NCBI GenBank assembly: GCA_014653385.1
Contig: JACWER010000001.1
Coordinates: 1 to 64,000 of the forward strand
Direction: 5' to 3'
Length of the DNA: 64,000 nt
Origin: Pelagibacterales bacterium SAG-MED50
GTDB lineage: Bacteria > Pseudomonadota > Alphaproteobacteria > Pelagibacterales > Pelagibacteraceae
Part shown: positions 1 to 58,248 of the stretch, in pieces
How positions within the stretch are numbered: the first letter of the stretch is position 1
Layout: every line of letters begins with the position of its first letter
Translations under genes and position numbers: made by a program
The notes under the pieces: generated by a model
The model's database searches: none
What the model saw: only the letters and a program-made list of their open reading frames with translations
What the model was told of the DNA's origin: nothing

Positions 1-1129
1 CTCTTACATCATTTTGAGATTTTTCATCAGTTTCAACAACTTTCTCTATAATAATTGGTTGATCATACACTTGATGTAATACTACAAATAATCCTGCAAA
101 TGCCATTAAAATGAAAAAAACCATTACCGATAAACCCTTTGTTACTCTTGTGACATAAGGAAGAATAAGACTAACTAATAATGCTATAACCAAAACTGCT
201 CCATAAGATAAGTCTGAAACAAAGCTTTGAAGTCTTTCAAATCTAAAAGTAACCAAGATATAATTTATAAGGTATAAGTTTAATGCACCTAAAATTGCTC
301 CAAACGCACCTCCACGCCCACCAGCCAAACTTGCACCACCTAGAACTAAAGCAGTAATACCTAGTAATGTATATTTAGTTCCTTGTAGTGGATCTCCAGA
401 TCCAACAAGAGCCGTAAAACATATTGCAGAAAGAGCTGCAAAAATTCCTGCTATCATATGAGCAACTATTCTTACAAGGTGAATTTTTACACCGCTTGTA
501 AAAGCTGCACGTTCATCTGAACCCATTAATTTTAGATGACCCCAAAAAGCCGTATGAGTAATTATATAAAATAATATTGTTGCCAATATCATTAGAAGAA
601 ATATAGGATTTAGAATTGTAAATCCTTCTCCCCATGGAAGCAACCAGTCAGGAGCTATTCCACCTGGTCTTGGTAAAATAACAATATTTATTCCAGCAAA
701 TGCTAAATATCCAGCTAGAGATACAATGATCGGTGAAACTCTAACAAAACAAACAATTAAAGCATAGAAAAGTTGCCAAATTAATCCCATTGCTATTGCA
801 TAAACAAACCAGCCAATTGGAGTTTGCAAATATCCAGCGGCATATAGTTGAATACTACTTACATTTATGAAACCCATGAAAGGACCAATAGACAAATCAA
901 CCCCACCTCTTCCGGCCATAGCTATAAATGTTAGAGCATAAGTGGTTAAAATTAAAGGAGCAGTAAGCATTATCGCACTTCCTATGCCTGATTGCGAGAT
1001 AAGTATTGGACTTCTAATTAAAGCAAAAATTAATAAAGCAAAAAAAATAAAAATAGGAACCATTAGATACTTATTTGAAGAAGTATCTACACTAGATCTA
1101 TAGGTTTTTAATTTTTCTATTATTTCCAT
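1..1129 (-). CDS. Ribose-type sugar ABC transporter permease, 3'-truncated by window edge
   Basis: The reading frame starts at an ATG at 1129 and stays open to base 1, so about 376 residues are visible and the C-terminus lies outside. The translation is very hydrophobic and carries two hallmarks of the RbsC/BPD_transp_2 family: GRGGVDLSIGP near residue 70 and VLGGASLAGGRGGAFGAILG in the C-terminal half. A cytoplasmic loop (GSDERAAFTSG) fits the ATPase-coupling region. The last visible residues form a polar tail after the final membrane segment. It starts 6 bases behind the stop of the preceding small gene and is the last visible gene of the operon. The family imports sugars or related polyols; the substrate cannot be read from the sequence. 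Confidence 0.9.
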   Translation of the reverse strand, partial: MEIIEKLKTYRSSVDTSSNKYLMVPIFIFFALLIFALIRSPILISQSGIGSAIMLTAPLILTTYALTFIAMAGRGGVDLSIGPFMGFINVSSIQLYAAGYLQTPIGWFVYAIAMGLIWQLFYALIVCFVRVSPIIVSLAGYLAFAGINIVILPRPGGIAPDWLLPWGEGFTILNPIFLLMILATILFYIITHTAFWGHLKLMGSDERAAFTSGVKIHLVRIVAHMIAGIFAALSAICFTALVGSGDPLQGTKYTLLGITALVLGGASLAGGRGGAFGAILGALNLYLINYILVTFRFERLQSFVSDLSYGAVLVIALLVSLILPYVTRVTKGLSVMVFFILMAFAGLFVVLHQVYDQPIIIEKVVETDEKSQNDVR

Positions 1130-1135
1130 TTTTTT

Positions 1136-1645
1136 TTAATCAAAATAAACAATTTTTATTTTATCAATTCCAAATTTATTTTTTAATTTTTTTTCACTTC
1201 CATTTATTTTGCTATAATCGATAACTCGAATTTTTTCGTTTAGTTCGTTATTTTTTTCTTGATCTAAATTTCTTTTTGGAATTATTTTATTGAACTCTTC
1301 ATGGTCTTTCGATGAATAGTTTGATTTGAGACTAATTTTTTTTTGTATTTTTTCCTCATTATTATGTTCAGAAAAATTATCTAGTTGATCAAATTTTTGA
1401 AAGTCTGATGGGTTATAATAGTTTATCTCTTTTCCCTTATCATTTTCATTATATTTAGGGGCTTTTTGATCAATCTTTAAAATATTATTAAAATAATTTT
1501 TATCAGAATTAGCATATTTAATATTATGATTATTTGATTGAATGTTATTTTTAAGGTTAGAATTAAATTTTCTAAAATTATTTAATTTTTCAAAATTAAT
1601 TTCATCTTCATCACTATAATATTTATGTTTATTTTCTATTTTCAT
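1136..1645 (-). CDS. Asn/Lys/Asp-rich protein of unknown function in sugar ABC operon
   Basis: I do not recognise this 169-residue protein. The ATG at 1645 overlaps the TGA of the ATPase gene by one base (TGATG), so it is probably translated by coupling; a TTG one codon earlier is less likely. The protein is almost entirely polar (N, K, E, D, S), with no signal peptide, membrane segment or obvious globular core, and is probably disordered. Two short hydrophobic islands break the pattern: KIRVIDY, and KIKIVYFD at the extreme C-terminus. A similar KIVKIVNFDDE stretch occurs in the C-terminal tail of the neighbouring ATPase. Its place between ATPase and permease genes argues for a role with this transporter, but that is inference. 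Confidence 0.7.
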   Translation of the reverse strand: MKIENKHKYYSDEDEINFEKLNNFRKFNSNLKNNIQSNNHNIKYANSDKNYFNNILKIDQKAPKYNENDKGKEINYYNPSDFQKFDQLDNFSEHNNEEKIQKKISLKSNYSSKDHEEFNKIIPKRNLDQEKNNELNEKIRVIDYSKINGSEKKLKNKFGIDKIKIVYFD

Positions 1646-3390
1646 CAAAAAGTTTTAACTTTTATTTTATTATTACTCTTATTATTATTTTCATCATCAA
1701 AATTTACTATTTTGACAATCTTTCTTTCTTCAGGTTTAGTTTTATTTTCAGCTTTATTTTTAATTATTGTTGAAACATTAGATTTAGCTGAAATAGTTGT
1801 TTCACCAACTCCAGCTGTTTGACCAAACATTCCTTCAAGTAAAGTATCAGCATTAATTTTATCATTTTCAAAAATATCAAATATTGTCCCATTTCTGAAA
1901 ACTATAACTTTTGGACATAGCCCAATAAATTCTTCTAGTTCACTTGATAAGAAAACAACTGTGTTACCTTCCTCAACATATTTTCTTAAATGAACATATA
2001 GGTCTCTTTTAGTGCTTATATCAATGCCCCTTGCAGGATCATTTAAGATAAGAACTTTTGGATGCTGTGCAAATGATCTTGCTATCATCACTTTCTGTTG
2101 GTTTCCTCCACTTAGTGAACCTATTAGATTATCACTTGGACCAGTTTTAATATTTAATCTTTCTACCTCCCAATCATAAATTCCATTTAGTTCCATCCAA
2201 TTAATAAAACCTAAGAATCCTGCTCTACTAGTTTTTTTGTAAAGAGGTACAACTAAATTTTCATAAATACTTAAGTTAGGAAGTATTCCTTCTTTTTTTC
2301 TATCACCAGAAACAAATGATATTCCATTTTCTTTTGCACTTTCTAATGAATTATATTTTAAAAATTTTTCACTAGAGTCTAAAATTTCAATAGTCCCACC
2401 ATGAGATTCTTGTACACCTGCTAAAATCTTAACAAAATCATCTTGTCCATTACCATCAAGACCTGTTATGCCTACAATTTCTCCTTTTTTGACTTCAAAA
2501 TTGACAGGTTTGCTATCTGGCCAAACAACTAAATTTTCTGCTCTCATTACAACTTTATCTGTTTTAGTTTGCATAGCTATTGATGTAGATTTCTCTCCAG
2601 TTTCTTCTCTACCGGTCATTAAGCCTATTAAATTTTTTTCATTAAGATCTTTTTTTTCTAACACCCCAACATCTTTACCATCTCTCATAACAGTTGCTTT
2701 ATCACTTATTCTTACTAGCTCAGCAATTCGGTGAGTTACAATAAAAATTGCAACTCCTCTGTCACGTAACTCTCTCATTTTTTTAAATAATCTTTCAGTG
2801 GAATCAAAATCAAGAGCAGCAGAGGACTCATCTAGAATTAACACTTTTGTATTATCTCTTAAGAAAGCTCTTGCAATTGTTATCCATGCTTTTATTGGAA
2901 GAGATAAATTAAATGCCTGAGTATATGGATCAACGTATTCACCAACAAGATCTTCCATAATTTCTTGAGCTTTAAGTACTTTTTCTCTTTGGGTTAAATT
3001 TTTGTACCAAAAATCATCTGATCCAACAAATAAGTTGTCTACTACTGATGACTCTTCAGCTATCATTACTTCTTGAAAAACTGTTGCGATTCCCATGTTT
3101 CTAGCCATTACTGGGGAAGTAGGAGTTTGACCAAGTATTGAAACTTTACCTTTATCTACTGGCAAAACTCCAGACATTGTTTTTGCCAATGTGCTTTTAC
3201 CACAGCCATTTCCTCCAACTATCGCGTGAATTTCACCAAAATTTGCATTGAAATTTACTCCGTTCAAGGCTTTGGTTACACCAAAATATTTGTGAACATC
3301 TTGGACGTAAATATCACCTTGGACAGTTTTTGACTTATCAGACAACACCTCTTTAGAGGTGTTGTCTTCTATATTTTTTTCAGCACTCAT
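1645..3390 (-). CDS. Sugar ABC transporter ATPase with two nucleotide-binding domains (RbsA/MglA type)
   Basis: This 581-residue protein powers sugar import with the neighbouring permease. Domain 1 (about 28-265) has a full Walker A (GGNGCGKST, 59-67) and Walker B (VLILDESSAALD, about 183-194), but its signature is degenerate (NLSLPIKAW, 161-169). Domain 2 (about 280-520) has a good signature (LSGGNQQK, 426-433), but its Walker A lacks lysine (GLDGNGQDD, 310-318) and its Walker B reads LILNDPARG. The intact parts therefore belong to one composite ATP site and the damaged parts to the other. A polar N-terminal extension of about 27 residues and a C-terminal tail of about 50 residues are additions to the usual length of about 500. 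Confidence 0.9.
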   Translation of the reverse strand: MSAEKNIEDNTSKEVLSDKSKTVQGDIYVQDVHKYFGVTKALNGVNFNANFGEIHAIVGGNGCGKSTLAKTMSGVLPVDKGKVSILGQTPTSPVMARNMGIATVFQEVMIAEESSVVDNLFVGSDDFWYKNLTQREKVLKAQEIMEDLVGEYVDPYTQAFNLSLPIKAWITIARAFLRDNTKVLILDESSAALDFDSTERLFKKMRELRDRGVAIFIVTHRIAELVRISDKATVMRDGKDVGVLEKKDLNEKNLIGLMTGREETGEKSTSIAMQTKTDKVVMRAENLVVWPDSKPVNFEVKKGEIVGITGLDGNGQDDFVKILAGVQESHGGTIEILDSSEKFLKYNSLESAKENGISFVSGDRKKEGILPNLSIYENLVVPLYKKTSRAGFLGFINWMELNGIYDWEVERLNIKTGPSDNLIGSLSGGNQQKVMIARSFAQHPKVLILNDPARGIDISTKRDLYVHLRKYVEEGNTVVFLSSELEEFIGLCPKVIVFRNGTIFDIFENDKINADTLLEGMFGQTAGVGETTISAKSNVSTIIKNKAENKTKPEERKIVKIVNFDDENNNKSNNKIKVKTF

Positions 3391-3406
3391 ACTTAGTTAT
3401 AAGTAT
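3389..3406 (-). other. Small AT-rich inverted repeat between binding-protein and ATPase genes
   Basis: A 7-bp inverted repeat (ATACTTA / TAAGTAT, loop GTTA) spans the end of the binding-protein gene and the start codon of the ATPase gene. It is AT-rich and therefore weak. It lies where other importer operons in this window carry much stronger hairpins, so it may modulate ATPase translation. It may equally be chance in such AT-rich DNA. Confidence 0.25.
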
Positions 3407-4608
3407 TAGTGAGATTTTGGATCGTATTTTGTAGGATCGCTTGGATTCTCAAAGAATGCTTCTACGTATTCTTTAGGAGCCCACTTGTCCATTCCAGGAT
3501 TATCCCAACCAGTAGAATTTCGATCACAATCTTCATTTAAGATTTGACTGATTTCATCGAAATTTTTTGTAGCTGGACCAACTAATATAGACTGAATCAT
3601 AGGACTTTGACCTTGCAAAGTTCTAATCATTACATCCATACCAAGTTCAACTTCATCTCCTGGAGGCCATGCATATATTGCTTCATCAATATATCCAGGG
3701 TTTTGTCTCCAATAACATAATGCTCCAAGTTCTCCACCTAAAGCAATTGGTGGAATTGGATCAAGACCAGACTGAAGTAAAGCTTGTAACGTTCCAGTTT
3801 CTCCTGAAGACTGTACCGCAATACCATCAACTTTTTTTGTATTTGTTGATAACCATTGTGATAGTTCTTTTTGAGCAACTTGCGAAGTCCAGTTATGTGC
3901 TAATTGTCCAACAACATTTACATCAGGGAATTCTGACAATGCAGCTAATACCCCTTTGTTTTGTTGGTCCGAAGCAGAATATCCTGGTATTCCTTCGATA
4001 ACTATAACATTACCTTTTTCACCAATAAGCTCAGCCATCCAAGCACCAACATAATAACCAACTAATCTGTAATTAACAGATGTATTGATTGAATATGGAG
4101 ATGTTGTAAAGCCAGTAAATGATAATGTAGGTATACCTTTTTCCCAACCATACTTAATAGTAGTGTTAAGAGCAGTTATATTAGAGCAACATATAATAAT
4201 TGCATCAACTTTACCCCCATCTATCATTTGTCTCATTTGTTGGATTTGTAATGAATCGTCCAAGTTTGATTGAGTAATTACGATTTCATCAACCATACCA
4301 AGTGCTTTCCATTTTGGATAAACAACTTCCATCAAACGTTCCATTGCACCTTTACGCCATGTATTTCCAGCATAAGTACTTGCATAACCAATAGTCCACG
4401 GTGGTTTTCTGGGACTTTTCCATCCCTTCATTACCGCAGGTCCTAAAGGTTGGTCTTTATCCATAAAGTCCATGTTATAAACATAATCTCTCATTTCTTG
4501 AGGAACTTTTTTTAGACACTCTGTGCATAATTCACCTGAATTAGCTGTGCTAAAGATTCCAAGAAGTGAAGAAAACATAATAACATAGATCATTTTAGTT
4601 ATTTTCAT
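3406..4608 (-). CDS. Periplasmic sugar-binding protein of ribose-type ABC transporter
   Basis: A 400-residue type I periplasmic binding protein that should capture the substrate for the ATPase and permease downstream. Residues 1-24 form a classical signal peptide ending in TANS. The mature part has the family pattern: an opening WTIGYASTYAGNTWRKG, then ...GGKVDAIIICCSN (a Peripla_BP_4-like strand-helix pattern) and a later DGIAVQSSG segment. At about 400 residues it is longer than E. coli RbsB, with an N-terminal insertion (ELCTECLKKVPQEMRD) and several cysteines (two in ELCTEC, CC, LCYW, EDCD) that could form disulfides. It is the first gene of the operon and has the strongest ribosome binding site seen here. 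The ligand is unknown. Confidence 0.88.
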   Translation of the reverse strand: MKITKMIYVIMFSSLLGIFSTANSGELCTECLKKVPQEMRDYVYNMDFMDKDQPLGPAVMKGWKSPRKPPWTIGYASTYAGNTWRKGAMERLMEVVYPKWKALGMVDEIVITQSNLDDSLQIQQMRQMIDGGKVDAIIICCSNITALNTTIKYGWEKGIPTLSFTGFTTSPYSINTSVNYRLVGYYVGAWMAELIGEKGNVIVIEGIPGYSASDQQNKGVLAALSEFPDVNVVGQLAHNWTSQVAQKELSQWLSTNTKKVDGIAVQSSGETGTLQALLQSGLDPIPPIALGGELGALCYWRQNPGYIDEAIYAWPPGDEVELGMDVMIRTLQGQSPMIQSILVGPATKNFDEISQILNEDCDRNSTGWDNPGMDKWAPKEYVEAFFENPSDPTKYDPKSH

Positions 4609-4619: not shown

Positions 4620-4826
4620 TTGATTAAATTAATAATGATACCTTCTCATGTAAGAAAAACTTTTTCTACGGTTTAAATATTATTAATTTTTATATATAAT
4701 TTTTATAGGTTAAATTTTCGTTTGTTTTAAATGAAAAAAATGATCTAAATTATGTTAAGTATATATTAAAAAAATATTCTATTAAGAGTTGAATAAGATT
4801 ATTTTTTGACAAAAAATTATTTCTAT

Positions 4827-5141
4827 ATGAAAAAATTAATTTTTATTTTTATTTTTATTCTAATGATCCCTTCGAGAGTTTTTGCAGATTATATTTTAGA
4901 GCCAGCAAATTGTACTTTGAAAAAACAAAATAATTGTGGAGCTTATCTTTACAATAATAAAACAGGAGCAACATATTTTTGTACTTTAGAAAAGTGTAAT
5001 GAAATTATGCCAGCTTTAGAAGAATTTATAGTAGAAGAAACTAAAGGTAAAAAAGAGTCTAAAAAATCAAAAATTCCTAAATTTAAAAAAAAAGAAAAAA
5101 AGAAATCTAAAATACCAAAATTTAAAAAAAAATCTGAATAA
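4827..5141 (+). CDS. Small exported protein with repeated basic C-terminal motif, unknown function
   Basis: I do not recognise this 104-residue protein. I chose the ATG at 4827 rather than an in-frame TTG at 4806 because it opens directly into a signal peptide (MKKLIFIFIFILMIPSRVFA). The mature part has four cysteines in a compact region (NCTLKKQNNCG, YFCTLEKCNE), suggesting two disulfides, then a very basic tail with KSKIPKFKKK twice. It is probably periplasmic; the tail could bind a polyanion such as a membrane surface, lipopolysaccharide or nucleic acid. It lies opposite the sugar-transport operon across a 218-base AT-rich spacer and converges on the next gene. Confidence 0.65.
   Translation: MKKLIFIFIFILMIPSRVFADYILEPANCTLKKQNNCGAYLYNNKTGATYFCTLEKCNEIMPALEEFIVEETKGKKESKKSKIPKFKKKEKKKSKIPKFKKKSE
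5064..5132 (+). repeat. Two-copy repeat encoding KSKIPKFKKK
   Basis: Bases 5064-5093 and 5103-5132 encode the same ten residues in the same frame, separated by EKK. The copies differ at synonymous positions (TCA/TCT, ATT/ATA, CCT/CCA). The peptide is therefore conserved while the DNA has drifted, which argues for selection on the peptide rather than recent slippage. Confidence 0.8.
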
Positions 5142-5147
5142 ATAGAT

Positions 5148-5618
5148 TTAATCTTTTGATTTTAATTTTTTAGTTTCTGCAATAGTGATTTCTATAGCTG
5201 ATCTAATCTCATTACAAAAATTGAGATCATCTCCAATAAAAGTTCCTTTAATAAAGCTTTGATTGGCAACTCCATTTTCTTTCATAAAATCCATATAATC
5301 AGATACCTGAACGCCCACACTATTTGAGTATTCTTTTTCAACATCTTGGTAGTTGACTTTTTTTATCTTTGCTAATGTCAGGATTCCAAATGGATATAAA
5401 TAATTTGCTGTTGCAAAAAAGCTTTTTGATAACTCAGGATGATCTTCTCTGGTTATTTCTGTTATTGCAGAATTTAAAGAAACACAACTTTTAATAATTT
5501 TATAAGTTAAATTATCATCTTCTAGAAGTTCTTGTATATTGTAAAAACCTAATCGTTCAACTTTTCCAGCAAATATGGGTGTTGAGAAAAAAATAAAAAT
5601 AATTATTAGTTTTCTCAT
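5148..5618 (-). CDS. Exported protein of unknown function
   Basis: I do not recognise this 156-residue protein. Residues 1-17 form a signal peptide (MRKLIIIFIFFSTPIFA, cleavage before GKVERLG). The mature region is predicted mostly helical, with two cysteines far apart (SCVSL and FCNEI) that could pair. It starts one base before the stop of the upstream class II aldolase-like gene (next gene ends at 5620), so the two are probably co-transcribed. It converges with the small basic exported protein. No catalytic motif is visible. Confidence 0.6.
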   Translation of the reverse strand: MRKLIIIFIFFSTPIFAGKVERLGFYNIQELLEDDNLTYKIIKSCVSLNSAITEITREDHPELSKSFFATANYLYPFGILTLAKIKKVNYQDVEKEYSNSVGVQVSDYMDFMKENGVANQSFIKGTFIGDDLNFCNEIRSAIEITIAETKKLKSKD

Positions 5619-43406: not shown

Positions 43407-44363
43407 ATGTTTTTTTTAATTTTTAAAAGATTTGTATTAGGGTTAATTACATTATTTATTGTATCTTTAATTACTTTTATTGGTGTTGAAATATTACCAG
43501 GTGATGCTTGCACTTCTTATCTGGAAAGAGAAGCTTTTGGCGAAGCTTTAGCTGCATGTGTAAAAAGATTAGGATTAGATGTCCCTGCTTATGAACGATA
43601 TTTATCTTGGGCATTTAATGTCATTCAAGGTGATTTTGGCTATTCATTAAGTGGACAAATGCAAATTAATGAAGTCTTAGGACCAAGAGTAAAAAACTCA
43701 TTGGTTCTTGCTTCTGCAGCAATAATTATTGGTATTCCATTAGCTTTAATATTAGGAATAATTACAGCTCTTTGGAGAGACAGAATGCCAGATATTATCA
43801 TTTCAACAGTTGCGATATTTTCAATGACTATTCCAGAATTTATAAGTGCAACTTTACTGATTTTAATAGTAGCAATATGGTTAGAGTGGTTACCAGGCAT
43901 AGTAATTGTACCAACTGACGTTACTTTTTTTGAATTACTTCCTAACATCATTTTACCAGTGATAGCAATAGCAATGATAATGACTGCTCATATGGCTCGA
44001 ATGGTTCGTTCAAGTGTTATTCAAGTAATGGCAAGTGATTATATTCAAATGGCAATATTAAAAGGAGTGCCATATTGGAAAATGGTTTTCAAACATGTAT
44101 TACCAAACGCATTATTGCCAGCAATTAATGTTGTCGCTTTAACTATTGCTTGGTTATTAGGTGGGGTAGTTGTAACTGAAGTGGTATTTAATTATCCAGG
44201 ACTAGGTAGATTGGTAATTGAGTCCATATCTAATAGAGATTTACCGGTCGTTCAAGCTTTAGGTATCATTCTTGCATCTATTTACGTTAGTATAAATTTT
44301 ATAGCTGATTTATTAACGTTAATGTTAAACCCAAGATTAAAGACATTGCAAACTAGAAAATAA
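43407..44363 (+). CDS. Dipeptide/opine-type ABC permease, DppB-like
   Basis: A 318-residue inner-membrane permease with six predicted segments. The N-terminus (IFKRFVLGLITLFIVSLITFIGVEILPGD) is typical of DppB/GsiC. The EAA loop is AILKGVPYWKMVFKHVLPNA. It lies 94 bases behind the binding-protein gene, across the hairpin, and 3 bases before the next permease gene. It has no Shine-Dalgarno. Confidence 0.93.
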   Translation: MFFLIFKRFVLGLITLFIVSLITFIGVEILPGDACTSYLEREAFGEALAACVKRLGLDVPAYERYLSWAFNVIQGDFGYSLSGQMQINEVLGPRVKNSLVLASAAIIIGIPLALILGIITALWRDRMPDIIISTVAIFSMTIPEFISATLLILIVAIWLEWLPGIVIVPTDVTFFELLPNIILPVIAIAMIMTAHMARMVRSSVIQVMASDYIQMAILKGVPYWKMVFKHVLPNALLPAINVVALTIAWLLGGVVVTEVVFNYPGLGRLVIESISNRDLPVVQALGIILASIYVSINFIADLLTLMLNPRLKTLQTRK

Positions 44364-51990: not shown

Positions 51991-53424
51991 ATGTTAGATA
52001 AAAAAGATTTTTATATAAATGGGCAGTGGGTTAAGCCAAATAGCTCTGAAGAAATTAAAGTAATTGATCCTGCAACTGAGGATAATTGTGCAGTTATCAC
52101 TTTAGGAAATAAAGCTGATGTTGATATGGCTGTTAATGCAGCTAAAGATGCCTATCAGTCTTGGGCCTTTTCATCTAAAGAGGAAAGAATTGGATTATTA
52201 GAAAAACTATATGAAAATTATAAAAAAAGATGGTCAGATATTGCAGAGACTATAACTCTAGAAATGGGTGCACCCAAAGATTTCGCAACAAAGTTGCAAG
52301 CAGGTACTGGGGCAAGCCATATTAAATCTTTTATAAGATATTTAAAAAATTTTGAATTTGAAAAACCATTAGGTGAACATGCTCCTAATCAAAGACTAAT
52401 TTATGAACCCAAAGGTGTTTGTGCATTAATTACACCATGGAATTGGCCAATGAATCAAGTGTGTTTAAAAGTAATGCCAGCAATCGCATCAGGGTGTACT
52501 ATGGTTTTAAAACCATCAGAGTTAGCGCCTCTATCTTCAATGATACTTGCTGAAATTATTGATGAAGTAAAATTTCCAAAAGGAGTATTTAATTTAGTTA
52601 ATGGTGATGGAGCAACAACAGGTGATGCTTTAACAAGTCATCAAGATATTAATATGATTTCTTTTACAGGATCAACAAGAGCAGGAGCTCTAATTTCACA
52701 AAATGCTGCTAAAGATTTTAAAAGAGTAAGTTTAGAGCTGGGTGGCAAAGGAGCAAACATAATTTTTAAAGATGCTGATCCAGAGGCTATCGAAAGAGGT
52801 GCTCTTAGATGTTTTAGAAATTCAGGACAATCCTGTAATGCACCAACTAGAATGCTAGTAGAAAAATCTATGTATAACGAGGCTATTGAAAGATTAAAAA
52901 AATATACTGAAAGTTTTGAAGTTGGCGATCCTAAAAAAGAAGGTGAACATATTGGTCCAGTTATTTCAGAGGCTCAATATTCTAAAATACAAACCTTAAT
53001 ACAAAAGGGTATAGACGAAGGTGCAAAATTAGTTGCTGGAGGAACAGGTAAACCAGAAGGTTTAGATAAAGGTTATTTTGTTAAACCAACAGTATTTGCT
53101 GACGTTAATAATGATATGGAGGTAGCAAGAACAGAAATTTTTGGACCTGTTCTATCTGTTATCCCATTTGAAACAGAAGAAGATGCGATCAAAATTGCAA
53201 ATGATACTGCTTATGGATTGACAAACTATATCCAAACGCAAGATACAGAAAAAGTTCAAAGAGTTGCTAGAAAATTGAGATCTGGAATGGTTGATGTAAA
53301 TGGAGCTGGGATTGCTGTTGACGCACCCTTTGGTGGTTTCAAACATTCAGGAATAGGTCGTGAAGCAGGTGCACATGGTCTAGAGGAATTTTTGGAAGTA
53401 AAAGCAGTAGGTGGTTGGAGTTAA
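51991..53424 (+). CDS. NAD(P)-dependent aldehyde dehydrogenase
   Basis: A 477-residue aldehyde dehydrogenase. Catalytic cysteine is in FRNSGQSCNAPTRM and the general-base glutamate in SLELGGKGANIIF; cofactor binding is in TPWNWPMNQ and FTGSTRAG. The length is normal. AAAGGA lies upstream of the ATG. It follows the ureohydrolase gene and so may oxidise gamma-guanidinobutyraldehyde, aminobutyraldehyde or a similar aldehyde. Its stop overlaps the convergent ArgE-like gene by 4 bases. Confidence 0.9.
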   Translation: MLDKKDFYINGQWVKPNSSEEIKVIDPATEDNCAVITLGNKADVDMAVNAAKDAYQSWAFSSKEERIGLLEKLYENYKKRWSDIAETITLEMGAPKDFATKLQAGTGASHIKSFIRYLKNFEFEKPLGEHAPNQRLIYEPKGVCALITPWNWPMNQVCLKVMPAIASGCTMVLKPSELAPLSSMILAEIIDEVKFPKGVFNLVNGDGATTGDALTSHQDINMISFTGSTRAGALISQNAAKDFKRVSLELGGKGANIIFKDADPEAIERGALRCFRNSGQSCNAPTRMLVEKSMYNEAIERLKKYTESFEVGDPKKEGEHIGPVISEAQYSKIQTLIQKGIDEGAKLVAGGTGKPEGLDKGYFVKPTVFADVNNDMEVARTEIFGPVLSVIPFETEEDAIKIANDTAYGLTNYIQTQDTEKVQRVARKLRSGMVDVNGAGIAVDAPFGGFKHSGIGREAGAHGLEEFLEVKAVGGWS

Positions 53425-54620
53425 TTTAAATTAGAACTTTCTTTAATTCCATCAAGAAGCTTTAAACATTTTTTTAATTCATCTAAAACTATAAACTCAT
53501 CAATTTTATGAGCTTGTTCAATTGATCCAGGACCACAAACAACAGTACTAATTCCAATTTCTTGAAATAAACCTGCTTCAGTTCCAAAAGAAACTACTTG
53601 TCTAGAATTGTCACCTGTTAGGCTTGAGATAAATTCACAAGCATCTGACTTATCTTCTCTATCAAATCCAACTATTTCACCGATGATATTTTTTTCAATT
53701 GAAGCATTTATAAAAATTTTTTTCATATCTGGAAGTAATACTTCATTTGCATATTTATCTATTTCTTGATTTAAAAATATTCCATCTTCTTTCACTACAG
53801 GTCTTGTTTCCCAATTAACATGACATTTATCTGCTATTACATTGTGAGCAATACCACCAAATATACCACCAATTGATAGTGTAGAGTGAGGTGGGTCAAA
53901 AATAGAGTCTTTAGGTTCTCTTTCCTTAAGTTTTTCTCTTAATTCAATTAATTTATTTACATATCTTGATGCGTATTCAACAGCACTTACACCTTTGTGA
54001 GGCGCAGAACTGTGTCCTGCCAAACCTTTAAAATAAGTTGTATATTCGTAACACCCTTTGTGGGCATCAATAATTTTCATATTAGTTGGTTCTCCAACAA
54101 TACAAATACCATCCTTAATATTTCTTCTTTTCAATTCTTCAATTAATATAGGAGCTCCTATACATGCTGTTTCCTCATCAAACGTAAAAGAAAAATGAAT
54201 ATCTCTATCTAAATTGGATTTTGAGTAGATAGGTGCATAAGCTAAAGCGCATGCAATAAATCCCTTCATATCACAAGAACCTCTTCCAAATAACTTATCT
54301 TCTTTAATTGTTGCAATAAATGGATCTGAGCTCCAACCTTTTGAAACTGGAACAACATCAGTATGGCCTGATAAAATTATTGGTTTTTTATTGTTTGAAT
54401 TTTTAGCTTTAAGTGTTGCAAATAGATTTACTCTTTTTTTTTCATCATCGTAGGTTCTAAAAGAAGTAGCACCTAGTTTTTTTAAGATATCATCACAGTA
54501 GTCAATTAAAGCAGTATTATCCTCTCCAGATATAGTTTTAAAACCAATTAAGTCTGTTAAAATTTTAACAGACTTATTAAATAAAAGGTCTGAATTATTT
54601 TCTGTACTCATATTTTTCAT
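53421..54620 (-). CDS. argE: ArgE-like M20 metallopeptidase (acetylornithine deacetylase family)
   Basis: A 399-residue M20 zinc amidohydrolase. Metal and catalytic motifs are LSGHTDVVPVSKGW, LFGRGSCDMKGFIA, FTFDEETACIGA and the dimerisation-domain AGHSSAPHKGVSAVEYA. The match to ArgE is good and arginine biosynthesis is the conventional role. In this neighbourhood of ureohydrolase and, 30 kb away, an ectoine-hydrolase-like gene, deacetylation of another N-acetyl diamino acid (such as N-acetyl-diaminobutyrate) is possible. An internal ATG at 54611 is an alternative start. Confidence 0.85.
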   Translation of the reverse strand: MKNMSTENNSDLLFNKSVKILTDLIGFKTISGEDNTALIDYCDDILKKLGATSFRTYDDEKKRVNLFATLKAKNSNNKKPIILSGHTDVVPVSKGWSSDPFIATIKEDKLFGRGSCDMKGFIACALAYAPIYSKSNLDRDIHFSFTFDEETACIGAPILIEELKRRNIKDGICIVGEPTNMKIIDAHKGCYEYTTYFKGLAGHSSAPHKGVSAVEYASRYVNKLIELREKLKEREPKDSIFDPPHSTLSIGGIFGGIAHNVIADKCHVNWETRPVVKEDGIFLNQEIDKYANEVLLPDMKKIFINASIEKNIIGEIVGFDREDKSDACEFISSLTGDNSRQVVSFGTEAGLFQEIGISTVVCGPGSIEQAHKIDEFIVLDELKKCLKLLDGIKESSNLN

Positions 54621-54638
54621 CTATTATATATTAATTAT

Positions 54639-54980
54639 ATGAAAGAACAAATTACCTTTGATGATTTTGACAAAGTAGATATTCGAGTTGGAACAGTAAT
54701 CTCAGTTAAAAAAAATGAAAAAGCTAGAAAACCATCGTTAGTGGTAGAAGTTGATTTTGGTGAGGAAATTGGAATTAAACAATCATCAGCTCAGATTACG
54801 CATTACTATACAGAGGAAAATTTGAAGGGCAAACAAGTGATTGGAGTGTGCAATTTTGCTGAAAAAAATATTGCTGGTGTAGTTTCACAAGTTCTAATTT
54901 TAGGATCAATTGATAAAGAAGGAAAAGTAATATTAGTTCATCCTTCTCAAAAATCTGAGAATGGATTGCCAATCGCTTAA
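54639..54980 (+). CDS. csaA: tRNA-binding domain protein, CsaA-like
   Basis: A 113-residue single OB-fold protein matching the tRNA-binding domain of CsaA and of the C-terminus of methionyl-tRNA synthetase. DFDKVDIRVGTVISVKKNEKARKPS opens the fold, and IKQSSAQITHYYTEENLKGKQVIGVCNF and VSQVLILG are typical. CsaA proteins have been described as chaperone-like or tRNA-binding. It diverges from the ArgE-like gene across only 18 bases and precedes the LysE gene by 3 bases. Confidence 0.85.
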   Translation: MKEQITFDDFDKVDIRVGTVISVKKNEKARKPSLVVEVDFGEEIGIKQSSAQITHYYTEENLKGKQVIGVCNFAEKNIAGVVSQVLILGSIDKEGKVILVHPSQKSENGLPIA

Positions 54981-54983
54981 TAA

Positions 54984-55577
54984 ATGCATCCAGAAATTTT
55001 ATCTATAACATTATTTGGAATTGTAGCTGCATTCACTCCAGGCCCAAATAATTTTGTTGCGTTTTACTCTGGTTTCAATTTTGGGATAAAAAGAACACTG
55101 CCACATATACTTGGTGTTACCTTTGGTTTCCCTTTTCTTTTATTATGTGTGGCTTTAGGGTTAGTTAATATATTTAAACTTTATCCATTAATTCAAGTAG
55201 TATTAAAGTATTTAGGAACAATATTTTTAATTTATTTAGCATATAAAATTTCATTTTCAGGATCACAAAATCAAGAAAATAAAAATATAAATCCTGTAAG
55301 GTTTATAGAGACATTTATTTTTCAATTTTTAAACCCTAAAGCTGTAATTGCTTCAATAATTGTTGTTTCTACATACATAAATCCAGGTGAAAATTTTGTA
55401 AATTACACGACTCAAATTATTATTTTAGCTTTACTGGTTTCTGTCACTAGCATCACCCTCTGGACATTTTTAGGTAAATTTCTTAGGAAATACGCGACAA
55501 ATCAGAAATTTATTAATTATTTTAATTATGCTATGTCACTGCTTCTTTTATTAAGCATAATAACTTTTTATTTATAA
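54984..55577 (+). CDS. LysE/RhtB-family amino-acid exporter
   Basis: A 197-residue inner-membrane protein with six predicted segments. The family signature TPGPNNFVAFYSGFNFGIKR lies near the N-terminus, and FQFLNPKAVIASIIVVSTY in segment 3-4 is typical. It exports amino acids or related metabolites; the substrate is unknown. It sits directly before aconitase (1-base gap), a compact arrangement rather than clear functional coupling. Confidence 0.88.
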   Translation: MHPEILSITLFGIVAAFTPGPNNFVAFYSGFNFGIKRTLPHILGVTFGFPFLLLCVALGLVNIFKLYPLIQVVLKYLGTIFLIYLAYKISFSGSQNQENKNINPVRFIETFIFQFLNPKAVIASIIVVSTYINPGENFVNYTTQIIILALLVSVTSITLWTFLGKFLRKYATNQKFINYFNYAMSLLLLLSIITFYL

Positions 55578-55578
55578 C

Positions 55579-58248
55579 ATGACTCCGGGAACAAAAAATT
55601 CTTATAAATCTTTAGCTAATATTTCTGTTGGAGACAAAAATTATAAATTTTATTCTCTAAAAAATGCTGAGCAAAATGGTCTTGAGGGTATATCAAAATT
55701 ACCAAAATCTTTAAAAGTTCTCTTAGAAAATCTACTAAGATATGAAGATGATTTGTCAGTAAATAAAAACCAAATTGAATCGATCAAAGAGTGGTTAAAA
55801 TCAAAAAAATCAAATACTGAAATTGCATATCGACCAGCTAGAGTTTTGCTACAAGATTATACAGGTATTCCAGCTGTAGCTGATTTGGCAGCGATGAGAG
55901 AAGCTGTAAAAGACAAAAATAAAGACCCGAATACTATTAACCCATTATCAGCTGTTGATCTTGTAATCGATCACTCTGTTCAAGTAGATCAATCTGCAAA
56001 ATCAGATTCTTTTGAAAATAATGTTGATATAGAATTTCAAAGAAATGGAGAAAGATATTCTTTTTTAAAATGGGGGCAACAAGCATTTAATAATTTTAGA
56101 ATAGTTCCACCTGGAACTGGAATTTGTCATCAAGTAAACTTGGAATATTTATCAAAAGTAGTTTGGTCAGAAGAATTTGAAGGAGATAAATATTTATTTC
56201 CAGACACTTTAGTTGGTACTGATAGCCATACCACAATGGTTAATGGGTTGTCAGTATTAGGTTGGGGTGTTGGAGGAATAGAGGCTGAAGCGGGTATGTT
56301 GGGTCAACCAATTTCAATGCTAATTCCTGAAGTTGTAGGTTTTGAAGTTACAAATAAAATGCCAGAGGGAACAACAGCAACTGATTTAGTTTTAACAGTT
56401 GTTAAGATGTTAAGAGATAAAGGAGTAGTTGGAAAATTTGTTGAATTTTATGGCGAAGGTTTAAAAAACTTAACTCTTGCTGATAGAGCAACAATTGCAA
56501 ACATGGCTCCAGAATATGGCGCAACATGTGGTTTTTTTCCAATTGATGATGAAACATTAAAATATCTAAAATTCTCTGGAAGAGATCAGCATACGGTTGA
56601 TGTAGTTGAACACTATGCAAAAGAACAAGGTTTATGGGCAAGTGATGAAATAGAATTTACTGATACTATCTCTTTAGATATGTCTACAGTAGTTCCAACA
56701 ATTTCTGGACCTAAAAGACCTCAAGATAAAGTTTTATTAACAGATGCACCAACTTCATTTAAAAAAGTTTTAGAAGATGCAACAAATAAGAAAGATCACT
56801 CAGTTTCAAAAGTTTCAAATACAGATTATGAAATTAGGGATGGTTCAATTTTAATTGCTGCAATTACTTCTTGCACCAACACCTCAAATCCAAATGTTTT
56901 AATTGGAGCTGGGTTACTTGCAAAAAAAGCTGTTGAATTAGGATTAGAAGTAAAACCTTGGGTTAAAACATCTTTAGCACCAGGTTCTCAGGTAGTAACT
57001 GATTATTTAGCAAAAGCTGGATTAAACACTTATCTTGATAAACTAGGTTTTAATCTTGTGGGCTATGGTTGTACAACATGTATTGGAAATTCAGGACCAT
57101 TGCCTGGAAATATAGTAGATGCAATTCAAAAAGAAAATATTTATGCAGTTTCCGTTTTATCTGGAAATAGAAATTTTGAAGGAAGAATATCTCCTCATAT
57201 TAAAGCAAATTATTTAGCCTCCCCTCCATTAGTTGTAGCTTACGCATTAGCTGGACACATGGAAGTTGATTTATATAAAGACGCTCTTGGAAAAGATAAA
57301 GATGGCAATGATATTTACTTAAAAGACATCTGGCCATCTAATAAAGAAATTGAAGACACTTTAAAACAATCTTTAAACGCTGAAATGTTTATTCAAAGAT
57401 ATTCAAATGTTTCAGAGGGACCCAGCCAATGGCAAAAAATTAAAACGGAAGAAAGCAGTATTTACAGTTGGGATGAAGGATCAACATATGTAAAAAAACC
57501 TCCTTTCTTTGATAACTTATCAGATGAACCAGAAGGATTTAAGGAAATTAAAGATGCAAGACCTTTATTAATCTTAGGAGATATGGTTACAACAGATCAC
57601 ATTTCGCCAGCAGGGAATATTCAAAAAGAAAGTCCAACTGGAGAATATTTTATGGAACACCAAATACTACCCAAAGATTATAATTCTTATGGATCAAGAA
57701 GAGGAAATCATGAAGTAATGATGAGAGGAACTTTTGCAAATATTAGAATTAAAAATGAGATGGCACCAGGAACAGAAGGTGGATTTACCAAGATTTATCC
57801 TGAAGAAAAAGTATTACCTGTTTATGATGCGGTTGTAGAATATAAAAAAAGAGGTACTGATTTAGTTGTCATAGGTGGTAAAGAGTATGGAACTGGATCC
57901 TCAAGAGATTGGGCAGCTAAGGGAACAAAATTATTAGGAGTTAAAGCAGTTATCGCCGAAAGTTTTGAGCGTATTCATAGGTCAAATTTAATAGGAATGG
58001 GAATTCTACCTCTGCAATTTACAAATGATGTAAATAGAAAAAATCTAAACTTAATTGGTTCAGAATTAATTAGTGTTCTTGATGTTGAAAAAGGTATTAA
58101 TCCATCTGATGAAGTAACAATTGAGATAAAATATGCTTCAGGGGATATCAAAAAGGTTAAAACTTTATGCAGAATTGATACTAAAAATGAATTAGAATAC
58201 TATAAAAATGGAGGCATACTCCAATATGTTTTAAGGAACATGATTTAG
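55579..58248 (+). CDS. acnA: Aconitate hydratase A
   Basis: An 889-residue AcnA/IRP-type aconitase converting citrate to isocitrate in the TCA cycle. The [4Fe-4S] cysteines are in AITSCTNTSNPNVL and YGCTTCIGNSGPLPGN. HQVNLEYLSKVVW and PDTLVGTDSHTTMVNGL are conserved substrate-site blocks, and the swivelling C-terminal domain contains VVIGGKEYGTGSSRDWAAKG. Length and motifs are complete. It is followed 2 bases later by the YfgM-like gene. Confidence 0.96.
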   Translation: MTPGTKNSYKSLANISVGDKNYKFYSLKNAEQNGLEGISKLPKSLKVLLENLLRYEDDLSVNKNQIESIKEWLKSKKSNTEIAYRPARVLLQDYTGIPAVADLAAMREAVKDKNKDPNTINPLSAVDLVIDHSVQVDQSAKSDSFENNVDIEFQRNGERYSFLKWGQQAFNNFRIVPPGTGICHQVNLEYLSKVVWSEEFEGDKYLFPDTLVGTDSHTTMVNGLSVLGWGVGGIEAEAGMLGQPISMLIPEVVGFEVTNKMPEGTTATDLVLTVVKMLRDKGVVGKFVEFYGEGLKNLTLADRATIANMAPEYGATCGFFPIDDETLKYLKFSGRDQHTVDVVEHYAKEQGLWASDEIEFTDTISLDMSTVVPTISGPKRPQDKVLLTDAPTSFKKVLEDATNKKDHSVSKVSNTDYEIRDGSILIAAITSCTNTSNPNVLIGAGLLAKKAVELGLEVKPWVKTSLAPGSQVVTDYLAKAGLNTYLDKLGFNLVGYGCTTCIGNSGPLPGNIVDAIQKENIYAVSVLSGNRNFEGRISPHIKANYLASPPLVVAYALAGHMEVDLYKDALGKDKDGNDIYLKDIWPSNKEIEDTLKQSLNAEMFIQRYSNVSEGPSQWQKIKTEESSIYSWDEGSTYVKKPPFFDNLSDEPEGFKEIKDARPLLILGDMVTTDHISPAGNIQKESPTGEYFMEHQILPKDYNSYGSRRGNHEVMMRGTFANIRIKNEMAPGTEGGFTKIYPEEKVLPVYDAVVEYKKRGTDLVVIGGKEYGTGSSRDWAAKGTKLLGVKAVIAESFERIHRSNLIGMGILPLQFTNDVNRKNLNLIGSELISVLDVEKGINPSDEVTIEIKYASGDIKKVKTLCRIDTKNELEYYKNGGILQYVLRNMI

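Follow-up and report, generated by a model that had tools for sequence, protein, structure and literature searches.

The locus examined here raises the question of what a short, Asn- and Lys-rich 'hypothetical' protein might contribute to the ABC importer operon of a streamlined genome. In the window, that is, the whole stretch of 64,000 nucleotides that was analysed (from contig JACWER010000001.1 of Pelagibacterales bacterium SAG-MED50), the corresponding ORF occupies positions 1136..1645 of the minus strand, with the ATG at 1645 and the stop down at 1136, and encodes 169 amino acids. As the initial annotation had stated, the ORF shares one base with the stop codon of the ATPase gene and lies 6 nt upstream of the permease ATG. 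The ATPase (1645..3390, minus strand; 581 aa) encompasses two ABC domains of the RbsA/YtfR/XylG-like variety and a C-terminal tail (residues 525–581; 1648..1818, minus strand) that is predicted to be disordered (pLDDT below 50 from residue 525 onwards) and includes two islands, KIVKIVNF (1699–1722) and the terminal KIKVKTF (1648–1668). With the first permease, a BPD_transp_2 protein truncated by the window start (2..1129, minus strand), and a periplasmic substrate-binding protein of the Peripla_BP_4 family (3406..4608, minus strand; 400 aa), this ATPase makes up an RbsA-type ABC importer.

In the draft genome from which the window comes, the operon is split between contigs C1 and C13, with the downstream genes on C13; the 3' part consists of the remainder of the permease, a second permease, PxpA (LamB/YcsF), a BC-PxpB fusion, PxpC, a BCCP-like gene, and a gene for a 69-aa protein. 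The first permease is of about double length, with a long additional half past the BPD_transp_2 domain (774 aa at L033:7261-9585, and 757 aa in two HIMB59-like genomes), and the second (L128:1197-2597) contains the stretch EEDEENFFFKNI, which is similar to the first repeat of the ORF, described below, minus its Tyr. Two small, probably exported proteins are encoded beside the operon (4806–5141, plus strand, and 5148–5618, minus strand); the former carries a C-terminal doubled KSKIPKFKKK-like motif that is kept in locus L072, and a Cys-containing relative may lie at L211:1866-2414.

The residues N, K, D, E, Q, S, P, and G account for 66% of the ORF product (18% each for K and N), and the AF2 single-chain model is of low confidence (mean pLDDT 62.5, pTM 0.20), in keeping with the largely disordered protein that had been proposed. 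Embedded in this chain are four copies of a motif with the consensus Y[STN]xxDxxxFxx[IL], starting at residues 10, 44, 77, and 110, and each is modelled as a helix: repeat 1 (residues 9–24, YYSDEDEINFEKLNNF; 1574..1621, minus strand) within a helix at 12–34, the most confidently predicted part of the protein (mean pLDDT 89 for residues 11–20 and 83 for 21–30), repeat 2 (residues 44–56, YANSDKNYFNNIL; 1478..1516, minus strand) with a helix at 46–56, repeat 3 (residues 76–91, YYNPSDFQKFDQLDNF; 1373..1420, minus strand) at 79–88, and repeat 4 (residues 110–122, YSSKDHEEFNKII; 1280..1318, minus strand) at 112–121. The protein ends in a bipartite tail (residues 136–169; 1139..1240, minus strand), in which KIRVIDYSK is separated by a charged stretch from the terminal GIDKIKIVYFD, the general form being KIxxIDYxK, charged residues, and GIxKIKxVYFD as the C-terminus; strands are predicted at 138–143 and 162–167, with low confidence. 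Hereinafter, the YTEKDFKAFKNIL-type helix motif and the KIKIVYFD-type tail are referred to as tags. None of 100,000 permutations of the ORF sequence contained three or more copies of YxxxDxxxFxx[IL]. T, S, or N at the N-cap with D three residues on constitutes a helix capping box, and T, S, or N follows the Tyr in 107 of the 119 distinct motif instances from the SAR11 ORFs and BC-PxpB proteins, among which Y, D, and F are invariant because the search pattern requires them. Thus, the ORF combines predicted disorder with repeated conserved motifs, as a multivalent disordered scaffold does.

The ORF (P0001) showed no match in Pfam or PHROGs at E ≤ 1 and none in NCBIfam at E ≤ 0.1. Across 36 members of the ORF family, weak matches were scattered over several families, such as MerR_1 and Lebercilin, the best being to MerR_1 (PF13411; 3 of the 36 at E ≤ 0.1, the lowest 1.8e-5). 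A MerR regulator was nevertheless rejected, given that the one match located, in L068 (E = 0.015, with a score under the cut-off), spans 23 of 69 positions, short of a complete HTH, and falls over repeat 1; we read the MerR_1 matches as probably reflecting a common capped-helix pattern. The sole match to a solved structure, a fucolectin-related one (E = 0.015, profile positions 38–143), was judged a composition artefact, and a viral or mobile origin was rejected as no relative was found in the viral_contigs or phages sets.

Is the ORF a committed member of the operon, as the initial annotation claimed? A scan with the ATPase, with one genome per species, yielded 78 loci from the best 80 places. 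Forty-six of these (L033–L078) encode an ATPase 79–98% identical to that of the window, and the other listed loci are at about 35% or less. Among the resulting 47 loci, window included, 45 extend beyond the ATPase stop (L060 and L071 end within the ATPase), and in all 45 the ORF start overlaps this stop by one base. The ORF is complete in 41 of the 45 (168–179 aa; one copy, in L056, has a GTG start), runs off the contig in two (L067 and L070), sits at a rearranged contig end in one (L051), and is broken, at residue 50, in one (L047); L047 and L051 were left out of the alignments and the dN/dS calculation. The expectation of an intact ORF in relatives was therefore borne out in 41 of the 42 fully readable orthologous operons, the exception being L047 (G232:C27:5522-5879), where the broken ORF lies beside an intact tagged ATPase, with a tagged PxpC elsewhere in genome G232. 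Loci L111–L113 duplicate L034, L041, and L067. The record of L039 is titled Flavobacteriales and is probably a misnamed draft; with 91% ATPase identity, it was counted as SAR11. The ORF is matched in only 10 of 397 genomes of the order and hence belongs to the flexible gene content. The orthologous ATPase was present in 4 of 61 genomes, including that of the window, and the ORF is next to it in all four (one copy, in G030, runs off the contig).

Selection on the ORF is concentrated in conserved islands. In the tail, the residues invariant in the 41 complete copies are K138, I142, D143, K146, N156, K157, G159, I163, K164, and V166–D169, and invariant residues map mostly to five islands, the four motif copies and the tail. 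The two tail segments singled out initially are thus conserved, as anticipated, but they are not the only islands of this kind, given that the four YxxxDxxxFxx[IL] copies are conserved to the same extent. Summed dN/dS is 0.39 over 789 pairs with dS between 0.1 and 1.5, without a single pair at 1 or above, and it drops to 0.19 in the motifs and tail compared to 0.77 in the linkers; the corresponding values, over the same set of pairs, are 0.06 in the core of the ATPase and 0.54 in its tail. Judging from these alignments, the ORF is under purifying selection, and a spurious ORF or a chance pattern was rejected in view of the conservation, the dN/dS values, the permutations, and the shuffles described below.

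The tail of the ORF recurs in two other proteins of the operon. In each of the 45 distinct SAR11 ATPases, the last seven residues are KIK, three further residues, and F, the K-I-K and the final F being invariant. Comparison of the ORF and ATPase tails with hhalign gave a probability of 81.6% over 20 columns, and none of 200 column shuffles scored as high. In these profile comparisons, the resemblance exceeds chance, in agreement with the likeness noted initially. The signal is not private to this pair, however: the ORF tail is matched more closely by that of PxpC (95.4% over 34 columns), and the PxpC and ATPase tails match at 93.1% over 13 columns; in either case, none of the 200 column shuffles reached the observed score. 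An ORF-like PxpC tail is present in 26 of the 27 operon copies read to the end, that of the same genome included (the copy in L154 is interrupted), and in one genome the tail of PxpC was matched by the whole-ORF profile as well (E = 1.3e-4). A tail profile (A3) built from 19 rows of ORF and PxpC tails, with the ATPase tails excluded, was run over 297 genomes of the order; at E ≤ 0.01, six genomes yielded 11 matches in total, every one of them to a frame with the size of the ORF or of PxpC. Both proteins were matched in five of these genomes, and PxpC only in G232, with the broken ORF. Among the 63 non-overlapping ORFs of at least 100 aa in the window (20,211 aa), the terminal tail pattern is restricted to the ORF and the ATPase.

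Likewise, the helix motif recurs in the enzyme encoded downstream, in the linker that joins the BC and CT domains of BC-PxpB, where two copies are found in 30 of 30 frames (28 distinct). The ORF has four copies in 39 of 43 complete rows and three in the other four (the duplicates L111 and L112 are included in this count). When the motif profile was run against the genome of the window, the four ORF sites and the two BC-PxpB sites scored at E values of 1.1e-5 to 0.0019, and the next-best matches were at 0.139 and 0.238; in the 57 searched genomes without the operon, the best match had E = 0.0066. Apart from its four copies in the ORF, the strict motif has a single occurrence among the 63 ORFs of the window. 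Neither tag is present on the canonical paralogues encoded in the same genome, a PxpB of 224 aa and a PxpC of 314 aa. As far as these scans of sequences can tell, the two tags appear to be near-exclusive to the proteins of this gene cluster.

One of the orthologous loci, L033, belongs to AG-390-L03, a SAG annotated in PMC10308929 for the flotillin-associated rhodopsin (FAR) cluster, in which biotin-dependent carboxylases and a PxpA-like gene have been noted. The operon of the ORF thus is part of the FAR cluster as presented in the passages of PMC10308929 devoted to it. On the AG-390-L03 contig, the genes run from the substrate-binding protein (from about 32306) to the end of PxpC (43818), and the flotillin-like (52915–54888; 658 aa) and rhodopsin-like (54906–55607; 234 aa) genes follow about 9–12 kb past PxpC. 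In between, with a few small genes interspersed, are genes for a BCCP-like protein, a 69-aa protein, a metallo-beta-lactamase (MBL)-fold enzyme, an Fe-ADH-like protein, a symporter, a dimethylformamidase-like protein, a hydrolase, and an SCP2-like protein. These names, as well as the identities of the rhodopsin and the flotillin, come from inspection of the sequences and from synteny with the cluster in the relevant passages of PMC10308929. In AG-390-L03, as in L208 and L209, the rhodopsin and flotillin genes are neighbours within the cluster of ~26 kb to which the operon belongs; in two HIMB59-like genomes they adjoin the same permeases. Compared with our locus, the cluster in PMC10308929 shares rhodopsin-like, flotillin-like, SCP2-like, symporter, carboxylase, and PxpA-like genes; it differs in that its FAR passages mention neither a small disordered ORF nor common tags.

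The downstream enzymes bear on the nature of the imported compound. The BC-PxpB fusion is 817 aa long, PxpC 374 aa, and the BCCP-like protein, encoded after PxpC, 72 aa; it was identified by reading its EVMKTEV site, which overturned an earlier reading of L114 as lacking a BCCP. Thus, BC, CT_A_B, CT_C_D, and BCCP components are all encoded, as in urea carboxylase or PxpABC, along with a PxpA (LamB/YcsF) homologue; unlike those systems, the enzymes here are split and partly fused, and carry tails and linker motifs absent from the canonical paralogues. PxpC scores above the cut-off of TIGR00724 (266.3 versus 230.2), and PxpA above those of NF003814 (282.4 versus 226) and NF003816 (253.5 versus 213). 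Scores against TIGR02712 (303.7 and 722.7 versus 1303.85) are below the cut-off, each chain corresponding to part of the model, and so are those against PxpC_5OPro (175.1 versus 500) and TIGR00370 (85.9 versus 145.55). The operon had initially been taken for that of a sugar importer, for which the transporter family is the sole support: the scores against sugar-transporter NCBIfam equivalogs are far under the cut-offs, and the enzymes encoded downstream resemble urea carboxylase and 5-oxoprolinase. We consider a sugar an improbable substrate, and the enzymes encoded next to the importer suggest an amide or a lactam as the better fit. We did not adopt 5-oxoproline as the substrate because a separate, untagged pxpABC-like set is present on another contig of the same genome (G000:C5); this second, canonical-looking pxpA/pxpB/pxpC set (L129:8023-10436) lies near apparent genes of a branched-chain-type ABC transporter. 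A protein of 69–75 aa is encoded near the BCCP-like gene in both lineages (L128:7162-7371, L267 with record positions 44074–44280, and L211:2416-2643), with similar C-terminal halves (IKTEIKTFITINIFSLV / LKSEIKSYIIINMLSLV).

A class-level search for BC-PxpB (385 genomes, E ≤ 1e-150) matched, besides the genome of the window, G652 and two genomes that we label HIMB59-like (G714 and G791), based on the cluster of the family and on the part of PMC10308929 that describes it. The tags are also found in this second lineage, on a different set of proteins. The ATPase is present at E ≤ 1e-120 in 39 of 52 HIMB59-like genomes; all ten copies read to the end finish with [IV][KQ]VVDF...KIK[IV]KYF, and the ATPases of loci L212–L241 terminate in KIK[IV]KYF in 30 of 30 cases. 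The biotin carboxylase is a separate protein here, and 10 of 10 copies read have an IKI-type first island followed by a terminal [IM]K[IV]V[YF]FD, which is GGIKVVYFD in six and a variant in four. The nine HIMB59-like PxpC proteins read lack the tail. In the operons read, the gene after the ATPase encodes PxpB with an N-terminal extension, and there is no separate ORF; the extension, which thus sits at the position of the ORF, contains motifs of the YK..D[LI]D.F.KI and Y...[DE]...F..[LI] types. In G652, a non-FAR relative (BC 53% identical), BC and PxpC are without the tail and PxpB without the motif extension. A contig with SAR11-like BC-PxpB and PxpC in a HIMB59-like draft of ~150 contigs (G844:C91; L265) was set aside as probably mis-binned.

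Profile comparisons across the lineages support some of these links more firmly than others. The two ATPase tails match at 96.3%, the highest among the tail pairs compared; the ORF tail matches the HIMB59-like BC tails at 93.8% (4 of the 10 tails were used) and the HIMB59-like ATPase tail at 85.2%, with 0 of 100 shuffles as high in all three cases. The PxpC tail reaches only 5.3% against the BC tail, not above shuffles (1 of 100 as high), and 32.5% against the HIMB59-like ATPase tail; within the HIMB59-like lineage, ATPase and BC tails compare at only 5.0%. With the SAR11 tail profile, the HIMB59-like BC tail was matched at E ≤ 1 in a single genome out of 52 (E = 0.02), so that the link to this tail comes from profile–profile comparison and inspection. 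Six of the nine PxpB extensions were scored with the SAR11 motif profile, the best scores being 13.1, 10.7, 9.7, 8.2, 7.4, and 6.9 bits; 8 bits were reached by 5 of 6000 permuted extensions, and hence the two lowest-scoring extensions carry little weight individually. A putative third motif in these extensions (LDVDDYASFKNM) was dropped as weak (at this place, one of the six extensions scored 5.8 bits, and the other five had a negative score or no match). In the 52 HIMB59-like genomes, matches of the motif profile are individually weak (E of 0.013 and up for the frame after the ATPase), an unrelated frame (G870:C5) outscores them in one genome (0.008), and most of the other matches listed look like chance. 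Among the better matches is a frame of about 317 aa (E of 0.016 and up), which in all seven copies read is the MBL-fold enzyme of the cluster, with YKKSDLDQFDKI near the N-terminus. The motif lies in an N-terminal extension of this enzyme (L264:4958-5908 in G791; also L258–L263), and no such extension was detected in the SAR11 MBL-fold enzyme (L114:3282-4118) with the pattern used.

The initial annotation envisaged a disordered accessory subunit that would be a new part of this importer class. The tags are found also on PxpC and BC-PxpB, and therefore a system linking the importer to the enzymes of the FAR cluster seems a better description than a new sugar-importer subunit. We propose that the ORF is a multivalent, mostly disordered adaptor that couples the ABC importer to the biotin-dependent carboxylase of the downstream genes, a reading to which we would give an even chance. 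The ORF would contribute four N-capped amphipathic helix motifs and a bipartite, strand-like C-terminal tail; the tail-bearing partners would be the ATPase and PxpC, and the motif-bearing partner BC-PxpB. Because it holds tags of both types, the ORF could bridge the two kinds of partners, either through contact between motif and tail or through common receptor sites. The importer and the enzymes would thereby be gathered into one assembly, a transport metabolon, in which the imported substrate is passed on to the biotin-dependent enzyme. The distribution of the tags would then amount to a docking code, with both tags on the ORF, the tail on the ATPase and on one enzyme subunit, and the motif on PxpB in both lineages. 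The ORF and the HIMB59-like PxpB extension might represent the same module, without and with an enzyme attached; given that the HIMB59-like operons read encode PxpB and no separate ORF, a free adaptor is not indispensable.

The main rival to the adaptor is a third hub, for example, the flotillin of the cluster, that would bind both motif and tail, such that the tags serve as addresses collecting their bearers in a rhodopsin-side microdomain, with the ORF as an extra multivalent client or spacer. Flotillin-like and rhodopsin-like genes are indeed located near the operon in AG-390-L03 and in two HIMB59-like genomes, and the relevant passages of PMC10308929 describe flotillins as scaffold proteins of membrane microdomains. 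According to the same passages, however, the carboxylase genes are confined to Pelagibacterales and HIMB59, whereas Pseudothioglobus retains flotillin and rhodopsin; hence, flotillin does not require the tags. Furthermore, neither tag was detected on the flotillin and rhodopsin frames scanned with the motif and tail patterns, and we consider this explanation unlikely.

Distinctly improbable, in our assessment, is a role restricted to enzyme assembly, whereby the ORF and the tags would hold together the carboxylase (PxpA, BC-PxpB, PxpC, and the 72-aa BCCP), and the ATPase tail would be a weaker bystander. BC, CT, and BCCP are separate chains that need to meet, and the closest match to the ORF tail is on PxpC; yet the islands of the ATPase tail are conserved, both among the 45 distinct SAR11 ATPases and among the HIMB59-like ones read to the end, and it is the cross-lineage ATPase pair that tops the tail comparisons. 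We give even less credence to a competitive regulator that would mimic the PxpB linker and the PxpC and ATPase tails to block or titrate partner sites or to mark proteins for turnover, a possibility raised by the copies on the ORF of tags that the enzymes also carry: the one-nucleotide overlap with the ATPase gene suggests coupled translation and hence stoichiometric production, and in the HIMB59-like operons read, the tags are present without the ATPase being followed by a free ORF. That the resemblance arose by chance in AT-driven, low-complexity disordered sequence is hardly credible, despite the high K and N content and the loose family matches, because the permutations, column shuffles, and genome-wide scans contradict it and conservation is concentrated in the islands.

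To return to the adaptor, its general principle has precedents, in that neither a scaffolded metabolon nor a docking motif is a new concept. In EPYC1 of the pyrenoid and CsoS2 of the carboxysome, disordered chains with repeated short helical or linear motifs gather a metabolic enzyme. At the level of description, the ORF is alike in being a disordered chain with repeated motifs, and the system differs in that the tags are also on the enzymes and the importer ATPase. Between PKS/NRPS subunits, short docking motifs at the termini determine which large proteins come together, in other proteins and another setting. We know of few documented cases of direct physical coupling between an ABC importer and catabolism, and none was found among the matches listed in the open-access literature on transport metabolons with an ABC transporter. 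Neither a described family (Pfam, NCBIfam, PHROGs, at the limits given above) nor, among the matches listed in the open-access literature for SAR11, 5-oxoprolinase, FArhodopsin, and transport metabolons, a paper corresponds to the set of proteins and tags found here.

More broadly, and with somewhat less confidence than an even chance would imply, we suggest that a private, transplantable two-part docking code, a capped helix plus a terminal strand tail, assembles the importer and catabolic enzymes, and that evolution has moved it between the ATPase, biotin carboxylase, PxpB, PxpC, the MBL-fold enzyme, and a dedicated disordered linker. The outcome, in ocean SAR11 and HIMB59-like bacteria, would be a transport metabolon held by a scaffold, which might take the form of a condensate at a flotillin/rhodopsin microdomain. 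Given that sequence alone names the candidate tags, their bearers, and a lineage in which the tags are elsewhere, the proposal can be tested with short peptides. If it is correct, the FAR cluster would gain a testable organisation, with the importer, the biotin-dependent enzyme, and further enzymes held near flotillin. It would also show that an Asn- and Lys-rich 'hypothetical' ORF of a streamlined genome need not be noise but can encode a conserved connector.
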